In this document: positions 1-62,493 of the stretch, one piece after another
Layout of the letters: each line of letters begins with the position of its first letter
How positions within the stretch are numbered: the stretch's first letter is position 1
DNA from: Herpetosiphon geysericola
GTDB taxonomy: Bacteria > Chloroflexota > Chloroflexia > Chloroflexales > Herpetosiphonaceae
DNA: 64,000 nucleotides
Direction: 5' to 3'
Assembly: GCF_001306135.1 (NCBI RefSeq)
Contig: NZ_LGKP01000021.1
Location: 248,001 to 312,000 of the forward strand
The notes under the pieces: model-generated
Databases searched by the model: none
Seen by the model: the letters and a program-made list of their open reading frames with translations, nothing else
What the model was told of the DNA's origin: nothing
Program-made: the position numbers and the translations under genes

Positions 1-217
1 CAATCAGCACTGGGCCTGAGGTAATGTACGAAACCAAGCCAGCGAAGAAAGGCTTGCCTTCATGAACGCCATAGTGCTTGTGAGCCAAATCGCCACTAAT
101 TTGCGACAACTTGATGCCGATGAATTTCAAGCCGCGAGCTTCCAAACGGGTTAAAATTGGGCCAATCAAGCCACGTTGAACTGCATCAGGCTTTAAGATG
201 ATCAATGACTTTTCCAC
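1..217 (-). CDS. ndk: Nucleoside diphosphate kinase, N-terminal part (runs off the window)
   Basis: The reverse strand reads a GTG start at 217 followed by MEKSLIILKPDAVQRGLIG, the classic N-terminus of nucleoside diphosphate kinase, which moves the gamma phosphate of ATP onto other NDPs. About 72 of the usual ~140-150 residues are present; the catalytic His segment lies outside the window. The KPDAVQRG motif and the later HKHYGVHEGKPFFAGLVSYITSGP segment match the family. A GGAGG ribosome binding site lies 7-12 bases upstream of the GTG. The upstream roadblock operon ends in its own terminator, so ndk is probably transcribed separately. Confidence 0.95.
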   Translation of the reverse strand, partial: MEKSLIILKPDAVQRGLIGPILTRLEARGLKFIGIKLSQISGDLAHKHYGVHEGKPFFAGLVSYITSGPVLI

Positions 218-363: not shown

Positions 364-711
364 CTAGATTGGCACAGCCTTGCTAATATTTTTGGCAGCG
401 CGGCGCATTTCAATCTTGACTAAACCAAGGTTGACCATGCGTTGAGTTACAACTGCCAAAATGACATCACGCGCTTCGAGCAACAGAATCGAACCATCTT
501 TTGCATCAATAATTGCATCAACCAGCGTGCCAATGCCAATGCGCTTGGTTGCTTTATCAATTTCGCCAAACACTGCTGCCGACATCGCGCCCAATACTTC
601 AGCATCTTCATCTTCGATCAAGGTGCTGGCGATAACCAAGCCGTCGCGGCCTACCAATAGGCTGCCGATAACCCCTTCAACCCGAATTAAGTCCTCAACG
701 ATATGACGCAT
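364..711 (-). CDS. Roadblock/LC7 domain protein
   Basis: A 115-residue protein that is a single roadblock/LC7 (MglB-like) domain: IEDLIRVEGVIGSLLVGRDGL-type N-terminus, central strands around IIDAKDGSILLLEARD, and a C-terminal helix. Roadblock proteins dimerise and in bacteria usually act as regulators or GTPase-activating partners of small Ras-like GTPases (MglA, COG2229). It starts 32 bases after the stop of the giant TPR gene, with an AAAGG ribosome binding site, so the two form one operon closed by the terminator at 308-341. No GTPase gene is adjacent; the only one in the window is at 57450-57968. The exact partner is unknown. Confidence 0.9.
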   Translation of the reverse strand: MRHIVEDLIRVEGVIGSLLVGRDGLVIASTLIEDEDAEVLGAMSAAVFGEIDKATKRIGIGTLVDAIIDAKDGSILLLEARDVILAVVTQRMVNLGLVKIEMRRAAKNISKAVPI

Positions 712-743: not shown

Positions 744-3700
744 TTAACGACGTGGTTTATTTAGCACCCAGCCATACTCATCCATCGCTTCACGCCAGCG
801 TCCTTGCTTAGAATAGGCATCACCTAAGGCACGGTGCAGCCGTTGGAGCAAGCCTGGATCATCGTGCGACTCAATCAGATCTTGCAAATCATCAACTACT
901 TGATCCATCAGTTGATTTTGTTTAATCAGCCGTTTGTATTCGGTCAATGCCTGATCGACCGAGGCGGTTTGGCTGATCATGCGGGCCAAGGCCATTCGCA
1001 AGCCATGGTTGCTTGGATCAGCTTCGAGTTGTTGATAGTATTCGCTAAAGTCGGGACCATCGCCACTTGCGCCGCCGCTGGTTACAGCTGGGCTAGCGCT
1101 CGGTTGTGATGTTTGGGCAACCACTGGCTGGGCTTCGACCGCTGGCGTTTCCGTCACTGGTTTTGGCTCAGGCCGTGGCGAGACGTTGTATAAGCGATCG
1201 CGTGGCCGTTGATCTTCTTCGCGTGGGCGAGGCGAAACCGGATACAACGGTGCGCGTTTGGTCTCTGGTTCTGGCTCAGCCTTTGGTGCAGGCGTTTCAG
1301 CAATGATTGGCTGAGTTGGCACGACAACTGGCGCAATTACCACTGGCGCAGCCTCAACGACTGGCTCGACCGGAGCTTCAATCGAAGCAATTTCATCATC
1401 GCTCAAGCCAAGATCTTCCCACGAGAATGGGGTCATCTCTGGCTCGGCGGGAGCTTCAGCAACGACTGGCTCTGGTTCTGGCTCGGCGCTTGGCAAAGCA
1501 AAATCGATGCCCATCAATTCTTCTTCGCTAAGCTTCAAGCTACGATCATCGTCGCCTTGTTGCAACGAAGCAATTTCTTCTTCATTCAAGCCAAGGTCGG
1601 CCAACGAGAATGGCGTTAGATCAGGCTCTAGCTCATTCGTCGTTTCAGGTGCTGGTGCATCAGTACCTTCCAAGGCGGCAATTTCTTCAGCGGTTAGCCC
1701 CAATTGGTCGAAGGTAAACGGCGACATATCTGGCTCATCGGCTTCGATTTCAGTTGTAGGCGCGCTCGGAGTGCCTTCCAAGCTTGCGATTTCGTCGTCG
1801 CTCAAGCCCAAATCCGTCAACGAGAACGGCGTCATTTCTGGCTCGGCCTCGTTGGTCGTTGTGCTGCTTGGTGCTTCAAACTCAAAGTTATCAAAACCAA
1901 AGCGTGATGGTTCTTCGGCAGCTGGTTGGCTGCTTTCATCGTTGAGCATGGCAATTTCTTCGGCGCTCAAGCCCAAATCCGTCAACGAGAACGGCGTCAT
2001 TTCTGGCTCGGCCTCGTTGGTCGATGGCGTATCAAGCTCGAAATTGTCGAACGAGAATAGCGCTGGCTCGGCGGCTGGCGTTTCTGCCGTGTCGCCGTTC
2101 AACATCGCAATTTCTTCGGCGCTCAAGCCCAAATCCGTCAACGAGAACGGCGTCATTTCTGGCTCAGCCTCGTTGGTCGTTGGCGTATCCAGCTCGAAAT
2201 TGTCGAACGAGAATGGCGCTGGTTCTTCAGCAGCGGTTTCTGCCGTGTCGCCATTCAGTTGGGCAATTTCTTCCGCGCTCAAGCCCAAATCCGTCAACGA
2301 GAACGGCGTCATTTCTGGCTCGGCTTCGTTGGTCGTTGGCGTATCCAGCTCGAAATTGTCGAACGAGAATGGCGCTGGTTCTTCAGCGGCGGTTTCGCTG
2401 GTTTCGCCATTCAGCATCGCGATTTCTTCCGCGCTCAAGCCCAAATCCGTCAACGAGAACGGCGTCATTTCTGGTTCGGCTTCGTTGGTCGTTGGCGTAT
2501 CCAGCTCGAAATTATCGAACGAGAATGGCGCTGGCTCGGCGGCTGGTTCTGCCGTGTCGCCGTTCAACATCGCAATTTCTTCGGCGCTCAAGCCCAAATC
2601 CGTCAACGAGAACGGCGTCATTTCTGGCTCAGCCTCGTTGGTCGTTGGCGTATCCAGCTCGAAATTATCGAACGAGAATGGCGCTGGTTCTTCAGCAGCG
2701 GTTTCTGCCGTGTCGCCATTCAGCATCGCAATTTCGTCGTCGCTCAAGCCCAAATCCGTCAACGAGAACGGCGTCATTTCTGGTTCGGCTTCGTTGGTCG
2801 TTGGCGTATCCAGCTCGAAATTATCGAACGAGAATGGCGCTGGCTCGGCGGCTGGTTCTGCCGTGTCGCCATTCAGCATGGCAATTTCTTCGGCGCTCAA
2901 GCCCAAATCCGTCAACGAGAACGGCGTCATTTCTGGCTCGGCCTCGTTGGTCGTTGGCGTATCCAGTTCGAAATTATCGAACGAGAATGGCGCTGGTTCT
3001 TCAGCGGCGGTTTCGCTGCTTTCGCCATTCAACATCGCGATTTCTTCCGCGCTCAAGCCCAAATCCGTCAACGAGAACGGCGTCATTTCTGGCTCGGCTT
3101 CGTTGGTCGTTGGCGTATCCAGCTCGAAATTATCGAACGAGAATGGCGCTGGTTCTTCAGCGGCGGTTTCGCTGCTTTCGCCATTCAGTTGGGCAATTTC
3201 TTCGGCGCTCAAGCCCAAATCCGTCAACGAGAATGGAGTCATTTCTGGCTCCAAGTCAATTGATTGTTGGTTGTAGCTCACAGGCTGATCGAAATCGCTA
3301 GCAATGAAGTTGGCAAGTGGTTCTTCGGCTTCGTAGGCATCGGCCTCATCACCAGAGAACTCCTCATCCATATTAATAACTTCATCGCCATCGCGAATTT
3401 GGATGCCATTATCGTGTAAAGCCAAGGCGATGCGGTCGATTTCCTCGGTTTGCGATTCAGGATCATCAAATTGATTGATGATATCAGTCAAATCGACATA
3501 GCCTTGGTGCTGACCAATGCCCAACAGGTTATCAAAAATTGGGTCATCGCTTTGATTTTGGCCAGCTTGCTCGATGGCAGCAATTTCTTCCGCCGACAAG
3601 CCAATATCATTCAAGGAGAATGGTTGTGAGCTATCGCTTAGCTCACGGACTGGCTCCTCGTAGGCTTGTGGCTCTTGATCGAAGCCCAAATCGTCGAGTG

Positions 3701-6041
3701 AGAAAGGCTGCAAACCACCATCGAAATTGAATTCATCATCGGAGGCTGGCGCTTGATTCATGGCTTCGAATTGGGCAATTTCATCAGCATCGAGGCCCAA
3801 ATCGGTCAAGGAGAAGGGAGTCATATTTGGCTCTTCTTCGACCTTGGGCGCAGGCTCGGCTGCTGGGGTTTGGTTGAACTCGCCTGAGTAAAGCGCTTGC
3901 TCATCAGCATCAAGCCCCAAATCGTCGAGCGAGAAGGGAGTGATATTTGGCTCATCGAAGCTAAATGCTTGCTCATCGCTAGCGTCGGGAGCATCGAAGC
4001 CAAATTCATTCAACGAGAACGGAGTTAAACCTGATTCATCGTTGGTAGGGTCAGTTGGCAAGGCGCTATCGTCGCTGGCTTGCAATTGGGCAATCTCATC
4101 GTCGCTCAGCCCAAGCTCGGCCAACGAGAATGGTTTGATTTCCAATTCTTCATCGGCTTGGGTTTGCGGTTGGTCGAGGTTGCCCATTGCGTTGTAATCG
4201 GCAATTTCGGCTGCATCTAAGCCCAAATCAGTTAATGAGAATGGCGTGATTGCTGGCTCAGTATCTGCCGTGTGCAAATCATGCTCATCATAATTGCGCA
4301 AATCGACGTTATCATTCGAGAAGAAGTTCATCGCTTCGTCGTCTGAATCGCTTGGATCGTAGACTGGCTCGACCAATGGTGGCAAGGTTTGAGTTTGCTT
4401 CTTGATCACCATGCGATTGAAGATTCCAGCATCATCTTCTTCGTCTTGGTTGAACTCTGGTTCAGGTTGGGCGCCGAAGATTGAGCGTGAGCGCGAGCGT
4501 GGTTGTTGCCAGCTAAAGCCAGTTGATTCTTCCTCGCTATCAGGATAGCGTGGTAAATCGCGGCTAAATGGCATGCTTGGCTCTGATGGGGTGTCGATTT
4601 CGTCGAAGCTCAGTTCATCAAGCGAGAACGGCTTTAAGGTATTCGGCAACACAACGTCATCATCTTGGGCTTTGGTGCTAGTTTCTGGTTGCACATCATC
4701 AAAATTTTCCAAGGAGAAGGGCTGCAATTGTTCTGGCAACTTGCCAGTATCCGAGCCAGTGCCTGGAATATCATCGATGTCGCTTTCGTCCCAATCGCCA
4801 AAACTGAATGGCGTGAGATCGCTTGGCAACTCAAAATCATCAGGATCAACCGTGTTTGCCACGCCTGGTGCTGGTTCTGGTTGGCTGGGGGCAACCACTG
4901 GTTCTGAGGCAGGTGTTGGAGCTTTATTGCTGAAGGGGTCGGTTTCATCGACCTCATCAAGCGAGAAGGGTTGAATATCCAAGCCCAAATCGTCGAGATT
5001 GAAATCGACATCGTAGGCTGGTTCGGCGCTGGTGGTTTGGGCGGGCGGGTTCGCAGGCGCGGCCCCAAAATCGCCAAACAACAAACTGCGCAAGAAATCA
5101 TCATCGCCATGGGCAGCAACCCCAACCGCGACCGGTTCAACTTCGACTTCGGCCAGCCAAGAGGCGGCAGGCGCTTTGCTTGCTTGTTCGGCGGCCAAGC
5201 GCTCGCGTTCAGCTTGTTCGACTGCTTCGCGGGCAAGTCGTTCTTTCTCGGCCTTTTTGGCCTTCCAAGCAGCTTCGTCAAAGGCTTCAATTTTGGTATC
5301 GGGGGCTTCGACTGGGGGGAGCATTCCATCGAACAAGGCATAGGCCACGCCTTGGCTAGGGTCGAGCTGCTGGGCATGTTGCCACAACTTACGGCCCTTG
5401 GGATCACCAGCGGACAACAGGTGATAGCCCAAAATCAGATTGGCCTTGAGCATATCGGGATAGTCGCGCAGAATATCACTGGCGACTTCGGCGGCCTCGG
5501 CCTCTTGGCCATTGCGCCAAAGCGCTTCGGCGAGCGCAACTGCAATATCAACCCGTTTGGGATCATCGGCCAGAACATCGTTAAATTCTTGAATCGCCTT
5601 ATCGAAGCGTCGTCCGCGCACATACATGCGCCCGAGGCCTGCTTTTTTCAGCAGAATGCGAGCGTTTTCACTGCCCCATGCTTCGGTATACAAACGCAAG
5701 ACTTGCGAACGCAACTCGGGCAAATCGGGCTTAATTTCAAAAGCTTGCTCAAATTCGCGGATAGCCGCTGCGAGATTGCCTTGGCGCTCATAAGTTACCC
5801 CCAAGCCAACATGGACAGGGATATTTTCGGGGTCAGAACGTAAGACCCGTTCAAAAGCTTCGACGGCTTTGGCTAAATCTTGGCGGTTGAGATATGATTC
5901 GCCGAGGATACGGTACGCTTCAAGATAATAGGGAAACGATTCAAGCAGATGCTCACTCGCACCTATGGCACGCTCCTCCTTCCCTGTTTCGAGAGCAGAC
6001 CGTGCTTCATCGTAGAGTGCTTGGATCGTGGTGAGAGCCAT
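744..6041 (-). CDS. Giant TPR protein with repeated PFSL-x-DLGL motif array
   Basis: A 1765-residue protein. Residues ~1-240 are tetratricopeptide repeats (for example AVEAFERVLRSDPENIPVHV); then a charged KAKKAEKERLAREAVEQ helix; then ~1350 acidic, low-complexity residues with about 25 copies of a motif like TPFSLTDLGLSAEEIA; then TPR-like helices to the C-terminus (residues ~1650-1765). Nine central copies form near-identical 52-residue tandem units. The start at 6041 is chosen for its GGGAGGAG site 4 bases upstream; an upstream in-frame ATG at 6095 lacks one. No signal peptide or membrane segment, so probably a cytoplasmic scaffold. The roadblock gene follows in the same operon. Function not known; inferred to be a multivalent docking platform. 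Confidence 0.88.
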   Translation of the reverse strand: MALTTIQALYDEARSALETGKEERAIGASEHLLESFPYYLEAYRILGESYLNRQDLAKAVEAFERVLRSDPENIPVHVGLGVTYERQGNLAAAIREFEQAFEIKPDLPELRSQVLRLYTEAWGSENARILLKKAGLGRMYVRGRRFDKAIQEFNDVLADDPKRVDIAVALAEALWRNGQEAEAAEVASDILRDYPDMLKANLILGYHLLSAGDPKGRKLWQHAQQLDPSQGVAYALFDGMLPPVEAPDTKIEAFDEAAWKAKKAEKERLAREAVEQAERERLAAEQASKAPAASWLAEVEVEPVAVGVAAHGDDDFLRSLLFGDFGAAPANPPAQTTSAEPAYDVDFNLDDLGLDIQPFSLDEVDETDPFSNKAPTPASEPVVAPSQPEPAPGVANTVDPDDFELPSDLTPFSFGDWDESDIDDIPGTGSDTGKLPEQLQPFSLENFDDVQPETSTKAQDDDVVLPNTLKPFSLDELSFDEIDTPSEPSMPFSRDLPRYPDSEEESTGFSWQQPRSRSRSIFGAQPEPEFNQDEEDDAGIFNRMVIKKQTQTLPPLVEPVYDPSDSDDEAMNFFSNDNVDLRNYDEHDLHTADTEPAITPFSLTDLGLDAAEIADYNAMGNLDQPQTQADEELEIKPFSLAELGLSDDEIAQLQASDDSALPTDPTNDESGLTPFSLNEFGFDAPDASDEQAFSFDEPNITPFSLDDLGLDADEQALYSGEFNQTPAAEPAPKVEEEPNMTPFSLTDLGLDADEIAQFEAMNQAPASDDEFNFDGGLQPFSLDDLGFDQEPQAYEEPVRELSDSSQPFSLNDIGLSAEEIAAIEQAGQNQSDDPIFDNLLGIGQHQGYVDLTDIINQFDDPESQTEEIDRIALALHDNGIQIRDGDEVINMDEEFSGDEADAYEAEEPLANFIASDFDQPVSYNQQSIDLEPEMTPFSLTDLGLSAEEIAQLNGESSETAAEEPAPFSFDNFELDTPTTNEAEPEMTPFSLTDLGLSAEEIAMLNGESSETAAEEPAPFSFDNFELDTPTTNEAEPEMTPFSLTDLGLSAEEIAMLNGDTAEPAAEPAPFSFDNFELDTPTTNEAEPEMTPFSLTDLGLSDDEIAMLNGDTAETAAEEPAPFSFDNFELDTPTTNEAEPEMTPFSLTDLGLSAEEIAMLNGDTAEPAAEPAPFSFDNFELDTPTTNEAEPEMTPFSLTDLGLSAEEIAMLNGETSETAAEEPAPFSFDNFELDTPTTNEAEPEMTPFSLTDLGLSAEEIAQLNGDTAETAAEEPAPFSFDNFELDTPTTNEAEPEMTPFSLTDLGLSAEEIAMLNGDTAETPAAEPALFSFDNFELDTPSTNEAEPEMTPFSLTDLGLSAEEIAMLNDESSQPAAEEPSRFGFDNFEFEAPSSTTTNEAEPEMTPFSLTDLGLSDDEIASLEGTPSAPTTEIEADEPDMSPFTFDQLGLTAEEIAALEGTDAPAPETTNELEPDLTPFSLADLGLNEEEIASLQQGDDDRSLKLSEEELMGIDFALPSAEPEPEPVVAEAPAEPEMTPFSWEDLGLSDDEIASIEAPVEPVVEAAPVVIAPVVVPTQPIIAETPAPKAEPEPETKRAPLYPVSPRPREEDQRPRDRLYNVSPRPEPKPVTETPAVEAQPVVAQTSQPSASPAVTSGGASGDGPDFSEYYQQLEADPSNHGLRMALARMISQTASVDQALTEYKRLIKQNQLMDQVVDDLQDLIESHDDPGLLQRLHRALGDAYSKQGRWREAMDEYGWVLNKPRR
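1840..3255 (-). repeat. Nine ~156-bp in-frame tandem repeats
   Basis: Each unit encodes 52 residues (51 in two copies, slightly longer in the ninth): a P-E-M-T-P-F-S-L-T-D-L-G-L block, a variable LNG-D/E-T/S-A-E linker and a PAPFSFDNFELDTPTTNEAE block. DNA identity between units is very high, so the array probably expands and contracts by recombination. More diverged single copies lie on both sides. Confidence 0.9.
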
Positions 6042-6155
6042 GCCGCTCCTCCCTGCGCTGTGCATCCAGCGCATCTGATAATCCGTGTCGATCACTGAAT
6101 GACGATCGTGGATTTGGGCGAATTGCTAAAGAATAATGGCGTAAAATGCGAAAGT

Positions 6156-6653: not shown

Positions 6654-7187
6654 TTATTGATCGTCCTCCACTGTTTGAAAGGACGCAGGCAGAAACTTAC
6701 GCCATTCTTCAAGACCGAGCCCATGCATTCGGCGTTCGATTAAATAGTATGGGCTTGCAAACGGGCGAAAGGGTGGCCGAATTAAGCGCATTCGTGCCTC
6801 CTCAGGAGTACGCCCACCCTTACGATGATTGCACGTGCGGCAGGCGCTTACCAGATTTTCCCAGCTATGTGCGCCACCGCGGTGACGGGGCAACACATGG
6901 TCAAGCGTAAGATCAGCACTGATCCGGTTGCAGTATTGGCAGGTGTAGTGATCGCGACGGAAAATTTCACGGCGAGAAAGCTTGACGTTTGGCAAGGGAC
7001 GACGAATCATATGGCCCAATCGGATGACCGACGGACAGGCAATCGTGTCGTTGGTCGTGTGCAACACGGCGTGGTTGTGTTCCAACACTTCGGCTTTACC
7101 ACCCAACACAAGCATCAAGGCACGGCGTGCAGAGCAGATATTGAGTGGCTCGTAATTATGGTTGAGGACGAGTACGGGAGAGTTCAT
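6654..7187 (-). CDS. HNH endonuclease family protein
   Basis: A 177-residue protein of the common bacterial HNH group that begins MNSPVLVLNHNYEPLNICS. The nuclease core is CQYCNRISADLTLDHVLPR followed by GGAHSWENLVSACRTCNHRKG: two CxxC zinc pairs and the catalytic His-Asn-His. Such stand-alone proteins are widespread in Cyanobacteria and Chloroflexota, and their biological role is not settled. The start at 7187 is preferred over 7265 because AAGGAG lies 10 bases upstream and the promoter at 7237-7265 would fall inside the longer frame. The response regulator follows after 11 bases. Confidence 0.88.
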   Translation of the reverse strand: MNSPVLVLNHNYEPLNICSARRALMLVLGGKAEVLEHNHAVLHTTNDTIACPSVIRLGHMIRRPLPNVKLSRREIFRRDHYTCQYCNRISADLTLDHVLPRHRGGAHSWENLVSACRTCNHRKGGRTPEEARMRLIRPPFRPFASPYYLIERRMHGLGLEEWRKFLPASFQTVEDDQ

Positions 7188-7236
7188 CGCGATCAGACTC
7201 CTTCGAAATGGAAGATGCGATGTAGTTGCCCGTGGT

Positions 7237-7265
7237 ATTGTATCATTGCCCCTACGCCTTGGCAA
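7237..7265 (-). promoter_or_regulatory. Promoter of the HNH / response regulator pair
   Basis: Minus-strand TTGCCA (7260-7265), exactly 17 bases, then TACAAT (7237-7242) with an extended TGA before the -10. Predicted start near 7230, about 43 bases before the ATG at 7187. Confidence 0.75.
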
Positions 7266-53443: not shown

Positions 53444-54733
53444 TTAGTTACAGTGGCCTGGGCCAATCAAACCGTTGTTGTAGCGATCTAATTGGGTAGC
53501 GTAGCTGTTGCCAGTGCTGGCGGCTGCGCCACTTGGCTTGCTGCCCAATGGATATTGTTGCAACCAAGCATCGGCGGCGGCAATCGTTGCATTGATCGTG
53601 CTGCCATTGGCACCTTGAGCGGTATTCAACTTAGCAGCAATCAATTGATGGATCAAGATATAGGTTGTGTCGCCACGTGGTGACGTGTTGAAGATGGCCA
53701 TCAATTGGCTTTGGTTGTAGGTTACGCCACCAACAACCAAGGTCGTTACTGGCCAAGCACTTGGGTGGTTCTTCCAATAGCCTTGGGTATAGCTACAATC
53801 CTTGCCAGCAGGTGTGCTGGTTGCGCTTGGAACTGGTGTTTTGGTCGCCGTTGGAACTGGTGTTTTAGTTGCGGTTGGCGCTGGCGTGTTGGTCGCCGTT
53901 GGCGCTGGCGTATTGGTTGCGGTTGGCGCTGGCGTATTGGTTGCGGTTGGCGCTGGCGTATTGGTTGCGGTTGGCGCTGGCGTGTTGGTCGCGGTTGGCG
54001 CTGGCGTATTAGTTGGCGTTGGATATGCCGTTGGCTCAAGTGTTGGCTCAAGTGTTGGCTCAACCGTTGGAACCGTAGTTGGTTCTGGAGTTGGCTCAAG
54101 CGTTGGTTCAAGCGTTGGTTCTGGAGTTGGCTCAAGCGTTGGAACCGTGGTTGGCTCGACCGTTGGAATTACACCACAATAGTTGGTGCCACCAGTGTGG
54201 CGAGCAGTGATCAAGCGATCGCCATAGCGCTGGCCATCGAGTGAGTGCAAGACTCCGCCATAAAACAAATCGATTTGGGCGGCACATGCAGGTACACCAA
54301 CACTCAAGGCCAAAATTGAGTTTGGCCCAACTTGGCCAGTAGCCCACGAATAAATCACTTGATGATCAATCACTTCATCCATTTTTTCATATGAAGCCAT
54401 GCCCACATTGTAGGAACATGTGGTTGATTTATTCTGAATTTTGCCAACTGAATTGCTTGAGAACCAGCCCGAAAGATCAACTTTTGGGTTACAGACTGGC
54501 ACAGCAGTTGGGGCGGTGGTTGCGGTTGGGGCAACCGTTGGCGCTACTGTTGGCTCGGCAGTTGGCTCTGCTGTAGGTTCGGCGGTTGGCTCAAGCGTTG
54601 GCTCGGTTACTGTCTCAACGCTGGCGGTTTCGGCTTTGCTCACGTTAGCAAACGTGGCGCTTGGCCCACCGACAGCCAAAATTGTTGCAAGTAGTACAAC
54701 CCGTGTTGTCCATCGTCGCAGTGTCGGGGTCAT
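53444..54733 (-). CDS. Secreted Pro/Thr-rich protein with YTQGYWKNHP domain
   Basis: A 429-residue exported protein: signal peptide (VVLLATILAVGGPSATFA), an EPTAEPTAEPT stretch, a domain around residues 80-190 (CNPKVDLSGWFSSNSVGKIQNKS), a long EPT/TPAPTATN stalk with about six APTATNTP units encoded by 24-bp DNA repeats, and a C-terminal domain with CSYTQGYWKNHPSAWP ending in GPGHCN. The YTQGYWKNHP domain occurs in many secreted proteins of environmental bacteria with unknown role. AAGGAG lies 6 bases before the ATG. Confidence 0.85.
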   Translation of the reverse strand: MTPTLRRWTTRVVLLATILAVGGPSATFANVSKAETASVETVTEPTLEPTAEPTAEPTAEPTVAPTVAPTATTAPTAVPVCNPKVDLSGWFSSNSVGKIQNKSTTCSYNVGMASYEKMDEVIDHQVIYSWATGQVGPNSILALSVGVPACAAQIDLFYGGVLHSLDGQRYGDRLITARHTGGTNYCGVIPTVEPTTVPTLEPTPEPTLEPTLEPTPEPTTVPTVEPTLEPTLEPTAYPTPTNTPAPTATNTPAPTATNTPAPTATNTPAPTATNTPAPTATNTPAPTATKTPVPTATKTPVPSATSTPAGKDCSYTQGYWKNHPSAWPVTTLVVGGVTYNQSQLMAIFNTSPRGDTTYILIHQLIAAKLNTAQGANGSTINATIAAADAWLQQYPLGSKPSGAAASTGNSYATQLDRYNNGLIGPGHCN

Positions 54734-57449: not shown

Positions 57450-57968
57450 CTATTTATGGGCATCGCGCAGAAAGCGCCGCACCACTTCGCGCACCGAATT
57501 TTTATCTGTCGCCGTGCATAAGTAAATATGAATTTCGGGCGAAAGATTCAACTGTTGGCGCAGATCAGTTTGGCTGATCACAGTGTTTAAATCGCTTTTG
57601 TTGGCCACAACTGCGTATGGTACCTCGCCGTGGTCGCGGAATTGGGCCAAAATTGTTGCTGCCTCGTCGATCGTTGCAGGCTGTGAAAGATCGACGAGCA
57701 CCAAAAAGCCGTCCATGTTTTTGGCCAAAATATCGCGCATAAAGTCGAAACGGGTTTGGCCGGGCGTACCAAATAATTGCAACGTATAATCGTCGAGCCT
57801 CACGCGGCCATAATCCATCGCAACAGTCGTATTAGCTTTAATCCGCTGCTCGTCGGGCGATGAGGTGGCTTTATCGGTATTAACAGCATTAATATCCGAT
57901 AATGATCGAATAAAGGTGCTTTTGCCCGTGTTAAAGGCTCCGGTGATCACGAGCTTAAATGGTTCCAC
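57450..57968 (-). CDS. COG2229-type small GTPase
   Basis: A 172-residue Ras-like GTPase. G1 is GAFNTGKST, G2 Thr is in ANTTVAMDYGRV, G3 is the family form FGTPGQTRF (Gly replaces the usual Asp of DxxG, as in COG2229), G4 is NKSD and G5 is CTATDKN. Family members partner with roadblock proteins. The GTG at 57968 is chosen: AAAGGAG lies 7 bases upstream and it removes an overlap with glgA that a start at 58007 would cause. It follows glgA after 17 bases, so the two are co-transcribed. No roadblock gene is adjacent. Confidence 0.92.
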   Translation of the reverse strand: MEPFKLVITGAFNTGKSTFIRSLSDINAVNTDKATSSPDEQRIKANTTVAMDYGRVRLDDYTLQLFGTPGQTRFDFMRDILAKNMDGFLVLVDLSQPATIDEAATILAQFRDHGEVPYAVVANKSDLNTVISQTDLRQQLNLSPEIHIYLCTATDKNSVREVVRRFLRDAHK

Positions 57969-57985
57969 AGGAATGCTCCTTTCAT

Positions 57986-59368
57986 TTAGCGCAAGCTCAG
58001 CGCCCAACGGTACACATCTTCATAACGCGTTGCGGCGGTATCCCAGCTAAAATCGTGGCTCATAGCGCGCCGCATAAAATAGCTCCAATCATTCGGGTAG
58101 CGATAGGCGGCCAAGGCGCGGCCTAAAGCATGCAGCATGGCCTCGACGTTGTAGTCGCTAAAGACCACCCCAACGCCTTCTGGTTGGCTCATATCGGGCA
58201 CGGTATCGACCAAGCCGCCAGTTGCCCGCACCACCGGAATCGTGCCATAGCGCATGGAAATCATTTGGCTCAAGCCGCAAGGCTCAAAGGCCGAGGGCAT
58301 GAGAAAAATATCGGCCCCAGCATACACCCGTTGTGCTAAGGGCGCATTAAATCCAATATAATTTGCGACCCGATCAGGCGCATAGCGGCTGGCATCGCGA
58401 AAGGCATCTTCGTAGGGGCCATAGCCCGAGCCAAGCACCATCAATTGAGCATCGGTGTCAGCAATAATTTGGCCCAAGCCTTGCACAATCAGATCAATCC
58501 CTTTTTGGCTATCGAGCCGCGAAACAACCGCCACCAATGGTACATCAGCGCGCTCTGGCAGGCCAACCTCACGTTGCAGCGCTGCCTTACACACCGCCTT
58601 GCCAGCCAAATCATCAAGGCTAAATGGCTGGGCAATATGCTGGTCGGTTGCTGGGTCAAAGTGCCGTGGATCGATCCCATTCAAAATCCCAATTAAGCGA
58701 TCAGAACGCTCGCGGAGCATGTGGTCTAGCCCAAAGCCATATTCAGGCCGCTTAATTTCCTCGGCATAGGTTGGGCTGACGGTCGTAATCACATCGCTGG
58801 TATACAGCGCTTGCTCCATCAAATTGAGATCGCCAAAGGCATCGTAGACCCCAACCAAGGGCCAAGCGTCGTTGGCAAAGCGTCCTTGATGAGCCAAATT
58901 GTGAATTGTAAAGACCAAGGCAGGCCGCGCAGCGTTGCCCCAAGCAATCCGAATGGCGGCGGCGGCATGCCAATCGTGGGCATGAATCACATCGGGCCAC
59001 CAATCCATTTGGCGGCAAGCTTCGAGCGCTGCGTGGCAAAAGAGGCCAAAACGCACATCATCATCGCCATGGCCATAAATCGTGGTGCGCGAGCCAAAGA
59101 AATATTGATTTTCAATAAACCAAGTATGCTCATCAGCAGTGGCCCAAAGTTGACATTCTTCCGTGCGCCAATCCAAACGAACTGGGAAATTATCGCGTAA
59201 CTGCCCCAAATTCCAGCGCAAAGGGTCGATCGTACCATAGCGTGGGATCACGAGCCGAACATCAAGCCCCCGGCGACGAAGTGCCTCTGGCAATGCACCC
59301 GCCACATCGCCCAACCCCCCAACCTTGACAAATGGAACGCTTTCCGCTGCCAGAAACAAGACCTTCAT
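57986..59368 (-). CDS. glgA: Glycogen synthase
   Basis: A 460-residue GT5 enzyme that extends alpha-1,4-glucan from ADP-glucose. It begins MKVLFLAAESVPFVKVGGLGDVAGALPEALRRRG, with KVGGLGD the ADP-glucose site, and has HAHDWHAAAA, TIHNLAHQG, GILNGIDPRHFDP, SRLDSQKGIDL and PSAFEPCGLSQMISMRYGTIPVVRATGGLVDTV. Length is normal. AAAGGGG lies 6-7 bases before the ATG. The GTPase gene downstream suggests a regulatory link, unproven. Confidence 0.95.
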   Translation of the reverse strand: MKVLFLAAESVPFVKVGGLGDVAGALPEALRRRGLDVRLVIPRYGTIDPLRWNLGQLRDNFPVRLDWRTEECQLWATADEHTWFIENQYFFGSRTTIYGHGDDDVRFGLFCHAALEACRQMDWWPDVIHAHDWHAAAAIRIAWGNAARPALVFTIHNLAHQGRFANDAWPLVGVYDAFGDLNLMEQALYTSDVITTVSPTYAEEIKRPEYGFGLDHMLRERSDRLIGILNGIDPRHFDPATDQHIAQPFSLDDLAGKAVCKAALQREVGLPERADVPLVAVVSRLDSQKGIDLIVQGLGQIIADTDAQLMVLGSGYGPYEDAFRDASRYAPDRVANYIGFNAPLAQRVYAGADIFLMPSAFEPCGLSQMISMRYGTIPVVRATGGLVDTVPDMSQPEGVGVVFSDYNVEAMLHALGRALAAYRYPNDWSYFMRRAMSHDFSWDTAATRYEDVYRWALSLR

Positions 59369-59472: not shown

Positions 59473-62286
59473 TTAGCAATTAACCGCCTGGACTAATGAC
59501 GGACGATCCCAACGAACAACAGCAAATGGTTGATGCATCTGCAACACTCGTTGCTGCACGCTCGCAGTATTGGGTGCGTTCAATTGAGTTTCGGCCACAA
59601 TTCGATAGTATTCATAGCCAGTGATTGCTGCTCGCTGAGCCAGTTGCTGCCATTCACGCTGGGCTGTTGCTCGCTCGCCAATTGCTTCGCTAATCAGCGC
59701 CGCCAAACAGGCATAATCCAGGGCAGCTTCGCCATTACCTGTTGGCGGCAAGGTTTGGTTCATGAGGCTATAAGCCTGCTCAGCACCGTCGTCGAGCAAA
59801 CTCAAGAGGAGGGTATGACGTTGCCATGCGATCTGCAAGCCGCTATTCTTTTGGCCATTTGCCAGCGCCGCAAGCTGCTCAAGGCCTTGGCGCGCTGCTG
59901 CAAACTCAGCCCGCAAAAGCCAACACAGCACCGCTGTATCGAGCATTGCCCCGCGAAATAGTGGCTCGCCACTAGCCCCAAGCAGCTGCAAATTTTGGAT
60001 AATCATGTGTTGTGCTTGTTCAGTTTGGCCTAAGGCGAGCAAGGTAATCGCCGTTTGGTTGCGCGAATTGAACCAGCCTTGTTGATCGGCGATCTGTTGT
60101 TTGAGCGCACAGGTTTGTTCGAGGGTTGTTAAGGCAAGCTGAGGCTGACCACGCATCAACTGAATAATGGCTTGGGTGTGTTGCATCCGTGCTTGGGCAT
60201 AGCGATCGCCAATTTGGATTAAGCCAGTTACTGCCTGTTCAATCGTCGCTTCTGCCTGTTTCAAATCGCCTTTGGTATAGTAAATATTAGCGAGGTTGGC
60301 CAAGGCCCGCGGGCGCACCCGATCCAAGCGAGCAAGCTTGGTTTGGGCCAACACATCGTGCCAGGTTTGAATACTGGCCTCGATTTCGCCAGTATATTGC
60401 TGCACAATCGCTAAGGTTCCGCCAGCCCGTGCCCGAATTTCGGCCAGCGTTGTAATGTGGGTCGCATCAAGTTGGTTGGCCAACCCAATTGCATGTTCGG
60501 CGGCTACCCGGGCAGGGCCAAATTGCGATTGCAGCAACAGGGCCTTGCTGAGGGCCATCTGCAATAAGCCATGTAAGCGAATTTCCTCAGCATCAAGGTT
60601 GGCAAGTGTTTGTTCGAGCACGCTTTGGGCAGCAGCAGCCTGATTGAGATGGAGCATTGCGCCAGCTAAGCGCCAAACCAAATCCGCTCGTTGGGTTGGT
60701 TGCCATGCCACAACCAAGGCTTCGCGATAGATTGCCTCGGCGGCGCTGGCTTGGCTGGTTGCCATTAAAAACTCGCCATAGGTTTGGAGCCATTGCAATA
60801 AGCAGCCTGGATGCTGCTGCTCCACACTTGAGCGAATGGTTTGCAACATTTCAGCAGCAGTGCTAGCCAAACCTTGCTGAATCAGCCGATCGCGGTGTTG
60901 CTGCAAACAATCCAAGGCAGCTGGAATAGCGGCGGCAGCGATCGCATGCTGGGCGGCACGAATCGGATCAAGTGCTTGTAAGGCATTGGCTAATTGATGG
61001 TGCAAGCCTTTGCGGCGTGCAGGTTGACTACGCAGTTGGGAATCCATATAATCTTGAACCAATGGCAAAACAGTGGCATGGCTCGGCGTATCAATCAACT
61101 GACGGCGGGTCAAATCGCTCAGCGCTTGGTGCCATTGATATGGCCCATCGACCGCAAAGCTACACTCCATCGGCCATTCAGCGTGCAAATTCAGTGGCTG
61201 AGCAGCAACCGCCAAAAGCGTCAGCAAGCGTTCGCTACTACTTGGTAATTGACGAAGCATCTGTTCAAGCACAAAACTGGCAATCTGTGGCTCATCAATC
61301 AAATGCTGCAAGCCGGCAGCGTCAATCCCATCAACCAATAAGCCAATCGTTAACCGCAATAACCCAGGATTTGCCTGGGTGCGTTCGATCACATGCTGGC
61401 TTGTTTCAACGCCATAATGCTGGAACAACGCTCGAGCCTCAGCAGGCTCAAATCCATGCAAGCCCCAATAATGAAATCCTTGCAAATTGAATTGCTCACG
61501 GCTCAGCACCAGCATGTGGCTGTTGGTTTTTTGGGCTAGCTGCTCAAGCATCAGGCGTAGTTGGGGCTGATCGATCAAAAGTTGGGCATTATCAAAGCAC
61601 AGTAAGGCCGGAATCTGGTGCAAGCCATGGATTAATAGCCCTAGTTGGCGCTCAAAACTCAAGCCAAGCTCGCCATCGTTGGGCAGATGCAGCAATGGTT
61701 CAACTTGGCTAGCACCATGGCTCAGCAAAAAAAGTGCCAATTGGCAGATCAAAATCTCGCTTGTAAGGTTAATGGTGGCGGTGAAACTAAACCAAAAGCA
61801 GCGCTCGCCCCAACGTTGTGCCAGCTGGCTGGCGATCACCGTTTTGCCAACCCCAGCCAGCCCATTCACCATCAAACAGCGTTCGCTGGCTAAACGTTGC
61901 TGAAGTTGACTGGTGGCCTTGCGCTCAATCAAGCAGTTTGGCAACGGTGGCGGTAGCTCAAGCAAACCAAGCTCGCTCTGCTGCTGCTCGATTTTTCTGC
62001 TTAGCGTGACATTTGCCCCAACCAATGGCTCGCCGCGGGCTGCCGCTGCTAGCTCCAACAAACGCGCCACACTCGTTGGATCATCATTCAGATCAAGGGC
62101 TGGCACTATTAATGCTACCACGCTGGTTAGGTCGGGCAAGCGTTGATTATTTTCCAAGCGCGAGATATGGGCCTCGCTATAGCCCGTCGCAATTGCCAAA
62201 TCGCGCTGAGTGAGTCGCGCTCTGCGCCGCAGAAAATGGAGCAGTGCTCCGAACGTCGCAAACGAATCGAGCTTAACTGCTGACAT
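59473..62286 (-). CDS. XRE-type HTH / STAND NTPase / TPR regulator
   Basis: A 937-residue protein. Residues ~10-70 are an XRE helix-turn-helix (ARLTQRDLAIATGYSEAHISRLENNQRLPDL); ~120-400 an NB-ARC-like STAND NTPase with P-loop GLAGVGKT (~142-149) and Walker B LLCFDN, followed by a winged-helix part; ~430-937 TPR-like helical repeats (LANIYYTKGDLKQAEATIEQAVTGL). Such regulators bind a ligand on the repeats, then oligomerise with ATP; some act in secondary metabolism, others in phage defence. No effector gene is linked here. The start at 62286 has GAGGAGG 6 bases upstream. Confidence 0.9.
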   Translation of the reverse strand: MSAVKLDSFATFGALLHFLRRRARLTQRDLAIATGYSEAHISRLENNQRLPDLTSVVALIVPALDLNDDPTSVARLLELAAAARGEPLVGANVTLSRKIEQQQSELGLLELPPPLPNCLIERKATSQLQQRLASERCLMVNGLAGVGKTVIASQLAQRWGERCFWFSFTATINLTSEILICQLALFLLSHGASQVEPLLHLPNDGELGLSFERQLGLLIHGLHQIPALLCFDNAQLLIDQPQLRLMLEQLAQKTNSHMLVLSREQFNLQGFHYWGLHGFEPAEARALFQHYGVETSQHVIERTQANPGLLRLTIGLLVDGIDAAGLQHLIDEPQIASFVLEQMLRQLPSSSERLLTLLAVAAQPLNLHAEWPMECSFAVDGPYQWHQALSDLTRRQLIDTPSHATVLPLVQDYMDSQLRSQPARRKGLHHQLANALQALDPIRAAQHAIAAAAIPAALDCLQQHRDRLIQQGLASTAAEMLQTIRSSVEQQHPGCLLQWLQTYGEFLMATSQASAAEAIYREALVVAWQPTQRADLVWRLAGAMLHLNQAAAAQSVLEQTLANLDAEEIRLHGLLQMALSKALLLQSQFGPARVAAEHAIGLANQLDATHITTLAEIRARAGGTLAIVQQYTGEIEASIQTWHDVLAQTKLARLDRVRPRALANLANIYYTKGDLKQAEATIEQAVTGLIQIGDRYAQARMQHTQAIIQLMRGQPQLALTTLEQTCALKQQIADQQGWFNSRNQTAITLLALGQTEQAQHMIIQNLQLLGASGEPLFRGAMLDTAVLCWLLRAEFAAARQGLEQLAALANGQKNSGLQIAWQRHTLLLSLLDDGAEQAYSLMNQTLPPTGNGEAALDYACLAALISEAIGERATAQREWQQLAQRAAITGYEYYRIVAETQLNAPNTASVQQRVLQMHQPFAVVRWDRPSLVQAVNC

Positions 62287-62493
62287 GAGAAGCCTCCTCA
62301 ATGGTGTGGAAAGTGTTCAGGTCACCAAATCGTCATTCATGTGGCATTAAGAGGAGTACGTACTGCGAGTATTTCTCGTTACTTGCTTGAATAAAGGGCA
62401 GCTATTTGGCAAGAATTGTCATATTTTGCAGCGTGAAGTTTGCTATGCTAACGCGCAAACAAGCTTGAGCAGCTAAACCAAAGGAGTTGCCCA

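Follow-up and report, generated by a model that had tools for sequence, protein, structure and literature searches.

The 64,000-nt stretch of the Herpetosiphon geysericola genome analysed here, hereafter the window (contig NZ_LGKP01000021.1, positions 248,001 to 312,000), carries at its left end a giant TPR/PFSL-motif scaffold gene, a small Roadblock/LC7 gene and ndk, all on the minus strand. The giant ORF can be read from a GTG (744-6095, 1,783 aa) or from an ATG (744-6041, 1,765 aa). Since 27 aligned orthologues all have the ATG at residue 19 (position 6041), 744-6041 is the better gene call and the start chosen in the original prediction was right; scaffold residues are numbered throughout from the GTG (position 6095). 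The product is an uncharacterised protein of the gliding, filamentous Chloroflexales. The Roadblock/LC7 gene (364..711, minus strand, 115 aa) starts 32 bp downstream of the scaffold and was recognised by Pfam PF03259 (60.1 bits against a cut-off of 23) and by its adjacency in orthologues; its product has the same sequence as its counterparts in H. giganteus and H. llansteffanensis (100% identity) and shares 99% identity with the one in H. aurantiacus DSM 785. As an MglB equivalog it scored 16.5 bits against a cut-off of 200 (NCBIfam NF052242, the only family returned, so that the protein may still belong to another MglB clade), and none of the matches listed reached an NCBIfam equivalog cut-off. 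The third gene, ndk (nucleoside diphosphate kinase, 1..217, minus strand, translation VEKSLIILKPDAVQRG...), is cut by the window edge, its 5' end lying inside the window. Upstream of the scaffold lies an HNH endonuclease gene (6654-7265, minus strand), and a similar protein (PVLVLNYNYEPLNIC) is encoded upstream of the scaffold at locus L050 (12510-13085). Further away, the window holds a 942-aa HTH/STAND-type NTPase with TPRs (59473-62301, minus strand) and a Ras-like small GTPase (57450-58007, minus strand; PF00071, 52.7 bits), which is located about 51 kb from the roadblock gene, adjoins a glycogen-synthase-like gene and is a candidate partner of a roadblock protein.

The scaffold is flanked by TPR domains at both ends, as had been proposed from its sequence. 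Pfam TPR families match residues 27-250 and about 1678-1771 above their cut-offs, and both regions are predicted to adopt the TPR fold with pLDDT >90, the C-terminal one in an orthologue (about 93). The N-terminal domain (5331..6026, minus strand, residues 24-255) has TPR proteins as structural matches (Z about 13), many of them peptide-bound, and the alignments listed span residues 19-149; the C-terminal domain (747..1064, minus strand) covers residues 1678-1783. The sole match in a PHROGs comparison likewise falls in the TPR region. In the middle of the protein (331-1640), E and D are the commonest residues and the spacers are modelled at pLDDT of about 30-50, bearing out the acidic and disordered character ascribed to it. 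At its start lies a short acidic helix motif, DDDFLRSLL (5061..5105, minus strand, residues 331-345, predicted helix 333-340), which is conserved among orthologues as DD(D)(F/L)LxxLL.

The middle is filled by a motif array, with 31 PF[ST][LFW] cores against a maximum of 3 (mean 0.23) in 1000 composition shuffles. Twenty of these cores are canonical, fitting P[FL][ST][LFWM]xxhGh, so that the earlier estimate of about 25 copies was a fair one; the full canonical form is PFSLx[DE]LGLSxEEIAxL and a representative 25-residue sequence is EPEMTPFSLTDLGLSAEEIAMLNGD. Following the protein from its N-terminus, degenerate (type II) PFSL/PFSF motifs (4596..4982, minus strand, residues 372-500) precede a first canonical block of seven motifs spaced by 28-40 residues (3561..4259, minus strand, residues 613-845), a tandem array of nine units of about 52 residues plus one longer unit (1776..3248, minus strand), and three last, irregularly spaced motifs (1371..1733, minus strand, residues 1455-1575). 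The nine near-identical units that had been noted are real, with nine canonical motifs at a spacing of 51-52 residues and a tandem period of 156 bp x 9.4 copies in the DNA (TRF), but each was found to be composed of two elements, the canonical PFSLTDLGLSAEEIA, present in every unit of the array, and a shorter type II motif, PFSFDNFELD, present in eight. A second copy of the array was not found in the H. geysericola genome. Two plus-strand ORFs (1507-3276 and 2024-3301) run antisense to the array and are read as its shadows. Elsewhere in the window, tandem repeats of 24 bp and 12 bp occur at 53818-54168 within a 429-aa ORF (53444-54733, minus strand).

The central array is not continuous, since it is interrupted by a folded domain that the original prediction missed. 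This segment (3360..3545, minus strand, residues 851-912; match at residues 855-924) scores above the Pfam cut-off for Sigma70 region 1.1 (PF03979), more clearly when tested alone, and the family is matched by 12 of 12 orthologous segments, whose own profile finds sigma factors as its best PDB profile matches (E 2e-4). It is modelled at pLDDT 85-90. The likeness to Sigma70 region 1.1 is confined to the family match, as the domain is embedded in a TPR scaffold and regions 2-4 are absent, PF03979 being the sole sigma family in a Pfam scan of the scaffold. Most Chloroflexales orthologues carry this domain, and it also occurs in genome G057, which has neither motifs nor roadblock. One would not expect to meet a sigma-1.1-like domain in a protein other than a sigma factor.

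Conservation within the array is concentrated in the motif. Among the repeats of the window, pN/pS is 0.19 in the cores and about 0.35-0.38 in the spacers, and the type II element shows zero non-synonymous differences; compared with H. aurantiacus, identity is 99% in the N-terminal TPRs, 94% in the cores and 79% in the spacers. An information profile of 460 sites from 36 genomes, each genome weighted equally, yields about 20-22 conserved columns (E-P-E-L-T-P-F-S-L-x-[DE]-L-G-L-S-x-[ED]-E-I-A-x-L) with flanking columns close to background. The flanks are thus free to vary, as had been claimed, but the conserved element comprises about 20 residues and not a 9-residue core. The unit amplified around it differs by lineage, with 52 residues in Herpetosiphon, 33 and 39 in other Herpetosiphonaceae, about 30-37 in Chloroflexus, 37 in Chloroploca and 53 in AL-N1, an overall range of about 30-57 residues around an unchanged core, which argues that the arrays were amplified repeatedly and independently. 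Copy number varies between lineages too. In six Chloroflexales genomes, a 25-position profile of the motif matched a single ORF in each genome at any E-value <0.05, and in the reduced genome G078 it found no match. A retained core, different amplified units and a single ORF per genome point to selection on a ligand-like element rather than to drifting repeats. The array could also be a passive acidic spacer with a ligandless motif multiplied by slippage, which would agree with the recent duplication evident from the near-identical tandem DNA units and with the different copy numbers among lineages; yet units that are unrelated and of different length share the 20-residue core, as do single copies scattered elsewhere, while the spacers are free to change, and this explanation, already disfavoured, is in our view very improbable. 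Many copies, a conserved short core and a disordered, variable setting are the marks of a multivalent short-motif scaffold, and we consider it probable that the protein is a multivalent docking array in this general sense.

The predicted structure of the motif fits such a role. In AlphaFold models of window residues 1-961 and of the C-terminal half of an orthologue, canonical motifs reach pLDDT of about 55-86 and are mostly modelled as two short helices joined by an LGL(S) turn inside disorder. The SxEE at the start of the second helix would fit a helix N-cap, and the modelled motif looks as might be expected of a docking element that folds upon binding. A relationship to half of a sigma-1.1 domain was rejected (probability 1% in profile comparison), and the best match in solved structures, a 12-residue stretch of topoisomerase V at E 0.005, was taken as chance. 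As TPR grooves commonly accommodate short peptides, and as many structural matches of the N-terminal domain are peptide-bound, the motifs could instead bind the protein's own TPRs, in cis or in trans, and assemble a network or condensate, with the roadblock protein bound elsewhere, for instance at the C-terminal TPRs. TPRs and motifs do always share one chain. However, the motifs modelled beside the N-terminal TPRs (pLDDT about 55-76) are no better ordered than those in a construct without this domain, genus g34 retains both TPR domains with zero motifs, and in other classes the TPRs are found beside linker repeats of another kind, which makes self-binding improbable. A model of five motifs fused to the C-terminal TPRs and the roadblock protein, taken from an in-frame read-through at locus L108, left the roadblock poorly folded (pLDDT about 32-70) with an alignment of 17 rows.

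Gene order also bears on the question of the partner. A class-wide protein search (E 1e-10) matched scaffold orthologues in 106 of 158 genomes, in many of them with distinct matches to the N-TPR and to the C-TPR. Nearly all canonical orthologues on uncut contigs have the roadblock gene 3' of the scaffold, in the same orientation and mostly at a distance of about 25-250 bp; the three larger distances (L114, L117 and L148) come after ORFs without a C-terminal TPR domain, which look like interrupted scaffolds, the ORFs at all fetched loci having been called mechanically, without a gene finder. With ndk as third gene, also found downstream in other classes, the order scaffold, roadblock, ndk recurs in most loci from other Chloroflexota classes (L192 is without such a scaffold), and this phylum-wide arrangement strengthens the roadblock protein as the partner originally suggested. 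An earlier description of this Chloroflexota TPR-roadblock-ndk locus was not found in the literature searched. In the other classes, TPRs and roadblock are kept, the PFSL motif is absent and other hydrophobic elements occupy the linker. Homologues with intact TPRs and no motif core, which the original prediction had regarded as evidence against it, therefore do exist outside the class, and the TPR-roadblock pair can do without the motif; since the frame is shared and the linkers differ, the PFSL array is what the Chloroflexales have placed in an older TPR-linker-TPR frame. One such orthologue (L190, 4659-8393, plus strand) has a linker of about a dozen EEPDWMKQI repeats, and its relatives have a single WPEWLKSLGA-like segment. 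The proteins of families f13 and f11 (L072, 412-3279, and L077, 310-3189, plus strand) carry linker repeats of the form PSDEELxxARP...GYTxxLDSLxAxGxEPFD beside divergent roadblock neighbours with 34-41% identity. Strong conservation of the roadblock protein itself (about 82% against 66-71% for ndk) was considered as a sign of many ligands and discarded, as another paralogue reaches 84-85%.

Lineages that have lost the roadblock offer a second line of evidence. In genera g34 and g27 of family f4 (four genomes), no PF03259 protein was found, and their TPR proteins persist with zero PFSL cores; at loci L062 and L066 the TPR gene is directly followed by ndk. In genome G050 (family f3), the roadblock gene of the locus is lost and the TPR gene is likewise followed by ndk, but three canonical motifs are retained; this genome keeps one other roadblock protein. 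Mapped on a tree of the N-terminal TPRs, the loss requires at least two changes, which corresponds to about two independent losses. The co-loss of motifs and roadblock supports a link between the motifs and the roadblock/GTPase system, with few events, the partial exception of G050 and a confounder, as the g34 genomes are also without PF00437 (T2SS/Tad-type) ATPases and the co-loss may be part of a general reduction. The proposal of the roadblock as partner is thus favoured by the synteny across the phylum and by the disappearance of the motifs where all roadblocks are lost, and weakened by the three motifs of G050; that it is the direct ligand of the motifs is a possibility that we put forward with reserve. 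The same losses might indicate a third partner, namely the Ras-like GTPase itself or a component of the surface, the gliding machinery or transcription. Judged by open-frame lengths, no stand-alone Ras-like GTPase was found among the PF00025 matches of G057 and of the 3-Mb genus g34, so that these GTPases are absent where the motifs are; the T2SSE-family ATPases are missing from g34 as well, and for gliding in Chloroflexales, Tad pili have been proposed as the motor (PMC7332563). A transcription component is suggested by the genuine sigma-1.1 domain within the array, but G057 retains that domain without motifs. Moreover, fixed synteny with the scaffold is seen for the roadblock gene and for the gene of none of these candidates, and we regard a third partner as unlikely.

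A comparable architecture is known from Myxococcus xanthus, and the following comparison is based on the descriptions of SgmX in parts of three papers (PMC7519303, PMC7668184, PMC11580455). SgmX is there a large cytoplasmic protein with TPRs at either end of a middle without recognised domain, an arrangement that the scaffold shares, and as the effector of MglA it binds MglA-GTP (PMC7519303) via its C-terminal TPRs (PMC7668184). It belongs to the polarity system of the roadblock protein MglB and a small GTPase, and the present scaffold adjoins a roadblock gene. On the other hand, SgmX is elsewhere described as having 14 TPRs throughout, and in those parts neither a repeated motif array nor a sigma-1.1 domain is reported. 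It acts on type IVa pili, and the retraction ATPase PilT (TIGR01420, E 1e-60) was found in none of 24 Chloroflexota genomes and in 5 of 14 controls. A type IVa pilus function of the scaffold was therefore rejected, nor is it expected to function directly as SgmX does; Chloroflexales filaments glide, and the pili that they carry are of the Tad and not of the type IVa kind (PMC7332563). In our best reading, the scaffold may work in a manner like that of SgmX. The GAP activity of MglB in Myxococcus is raised by the low-affinity partner RomY (PMC9481161), which would resemble the model proposed here in that a roadblock dimer regulates a Ras-like GTPase through a second, weakly binding partner. However, RomY has one conserved N-terminal domain, and the candidate partner here is a long multivalent protein.

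The original interpretation is supported in part, and within it the reading as an array of docking motifs is well supported by the invariant core, the free spacers, the independent amplifications and the single protein per genome. With the same motif re-amplified in every lineage and the gene placed beside a small G-protein regulator, the scaffold probably clusters this regulator or its partners, and we tentatively propose, at somewhat less than even confidence, that it is the multivalent docking scaffold of a Chloroflexota roadblock/small-GTPase module. Each element would fold as a short helix-turn-helix upon binding one site of the partner, most likely the homodimer of the co-encoded roadblock protein. 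Many weak sites could raise the local concentration of this regulator and thereby of its Ras-like GTPase, and the terminal TPRs might tether the assembly to other proteins, e.g. of the surface or gliding machinery.

A polarity or signalling module known to control Chloroflexales gliding was not found, and the locus is a conserved and testable candidate, with a single-gene scaffold beside a roadblock gene in the culturable Herpetosiphon aurantiacus and Chloroflexus islandicus. In a broader and more doubtful reading, the phylum might share an undescribed module of TPR-linker-TPR protein, roadblock and ndk, whose linker, carrying a sigma-1.1-like domain, would be an evolvable slot in which each lineage amplifies a hydrophobic docking motif of its own, namely PFSLxDLGL for the Chloroflexales, EEPDWMKQI for one of the other classes and SLDAxGxEPFD for a further family, and thereby assembles numerous molecules of a G-protein regulator on one scaffold. 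If this holds, bacteria would possess a multivalent hub of G-protein signalling. A single 20-residue element that was re-amplified again and again also constitutes a clear natural experiment on the evolution of multivalent docking arrays.
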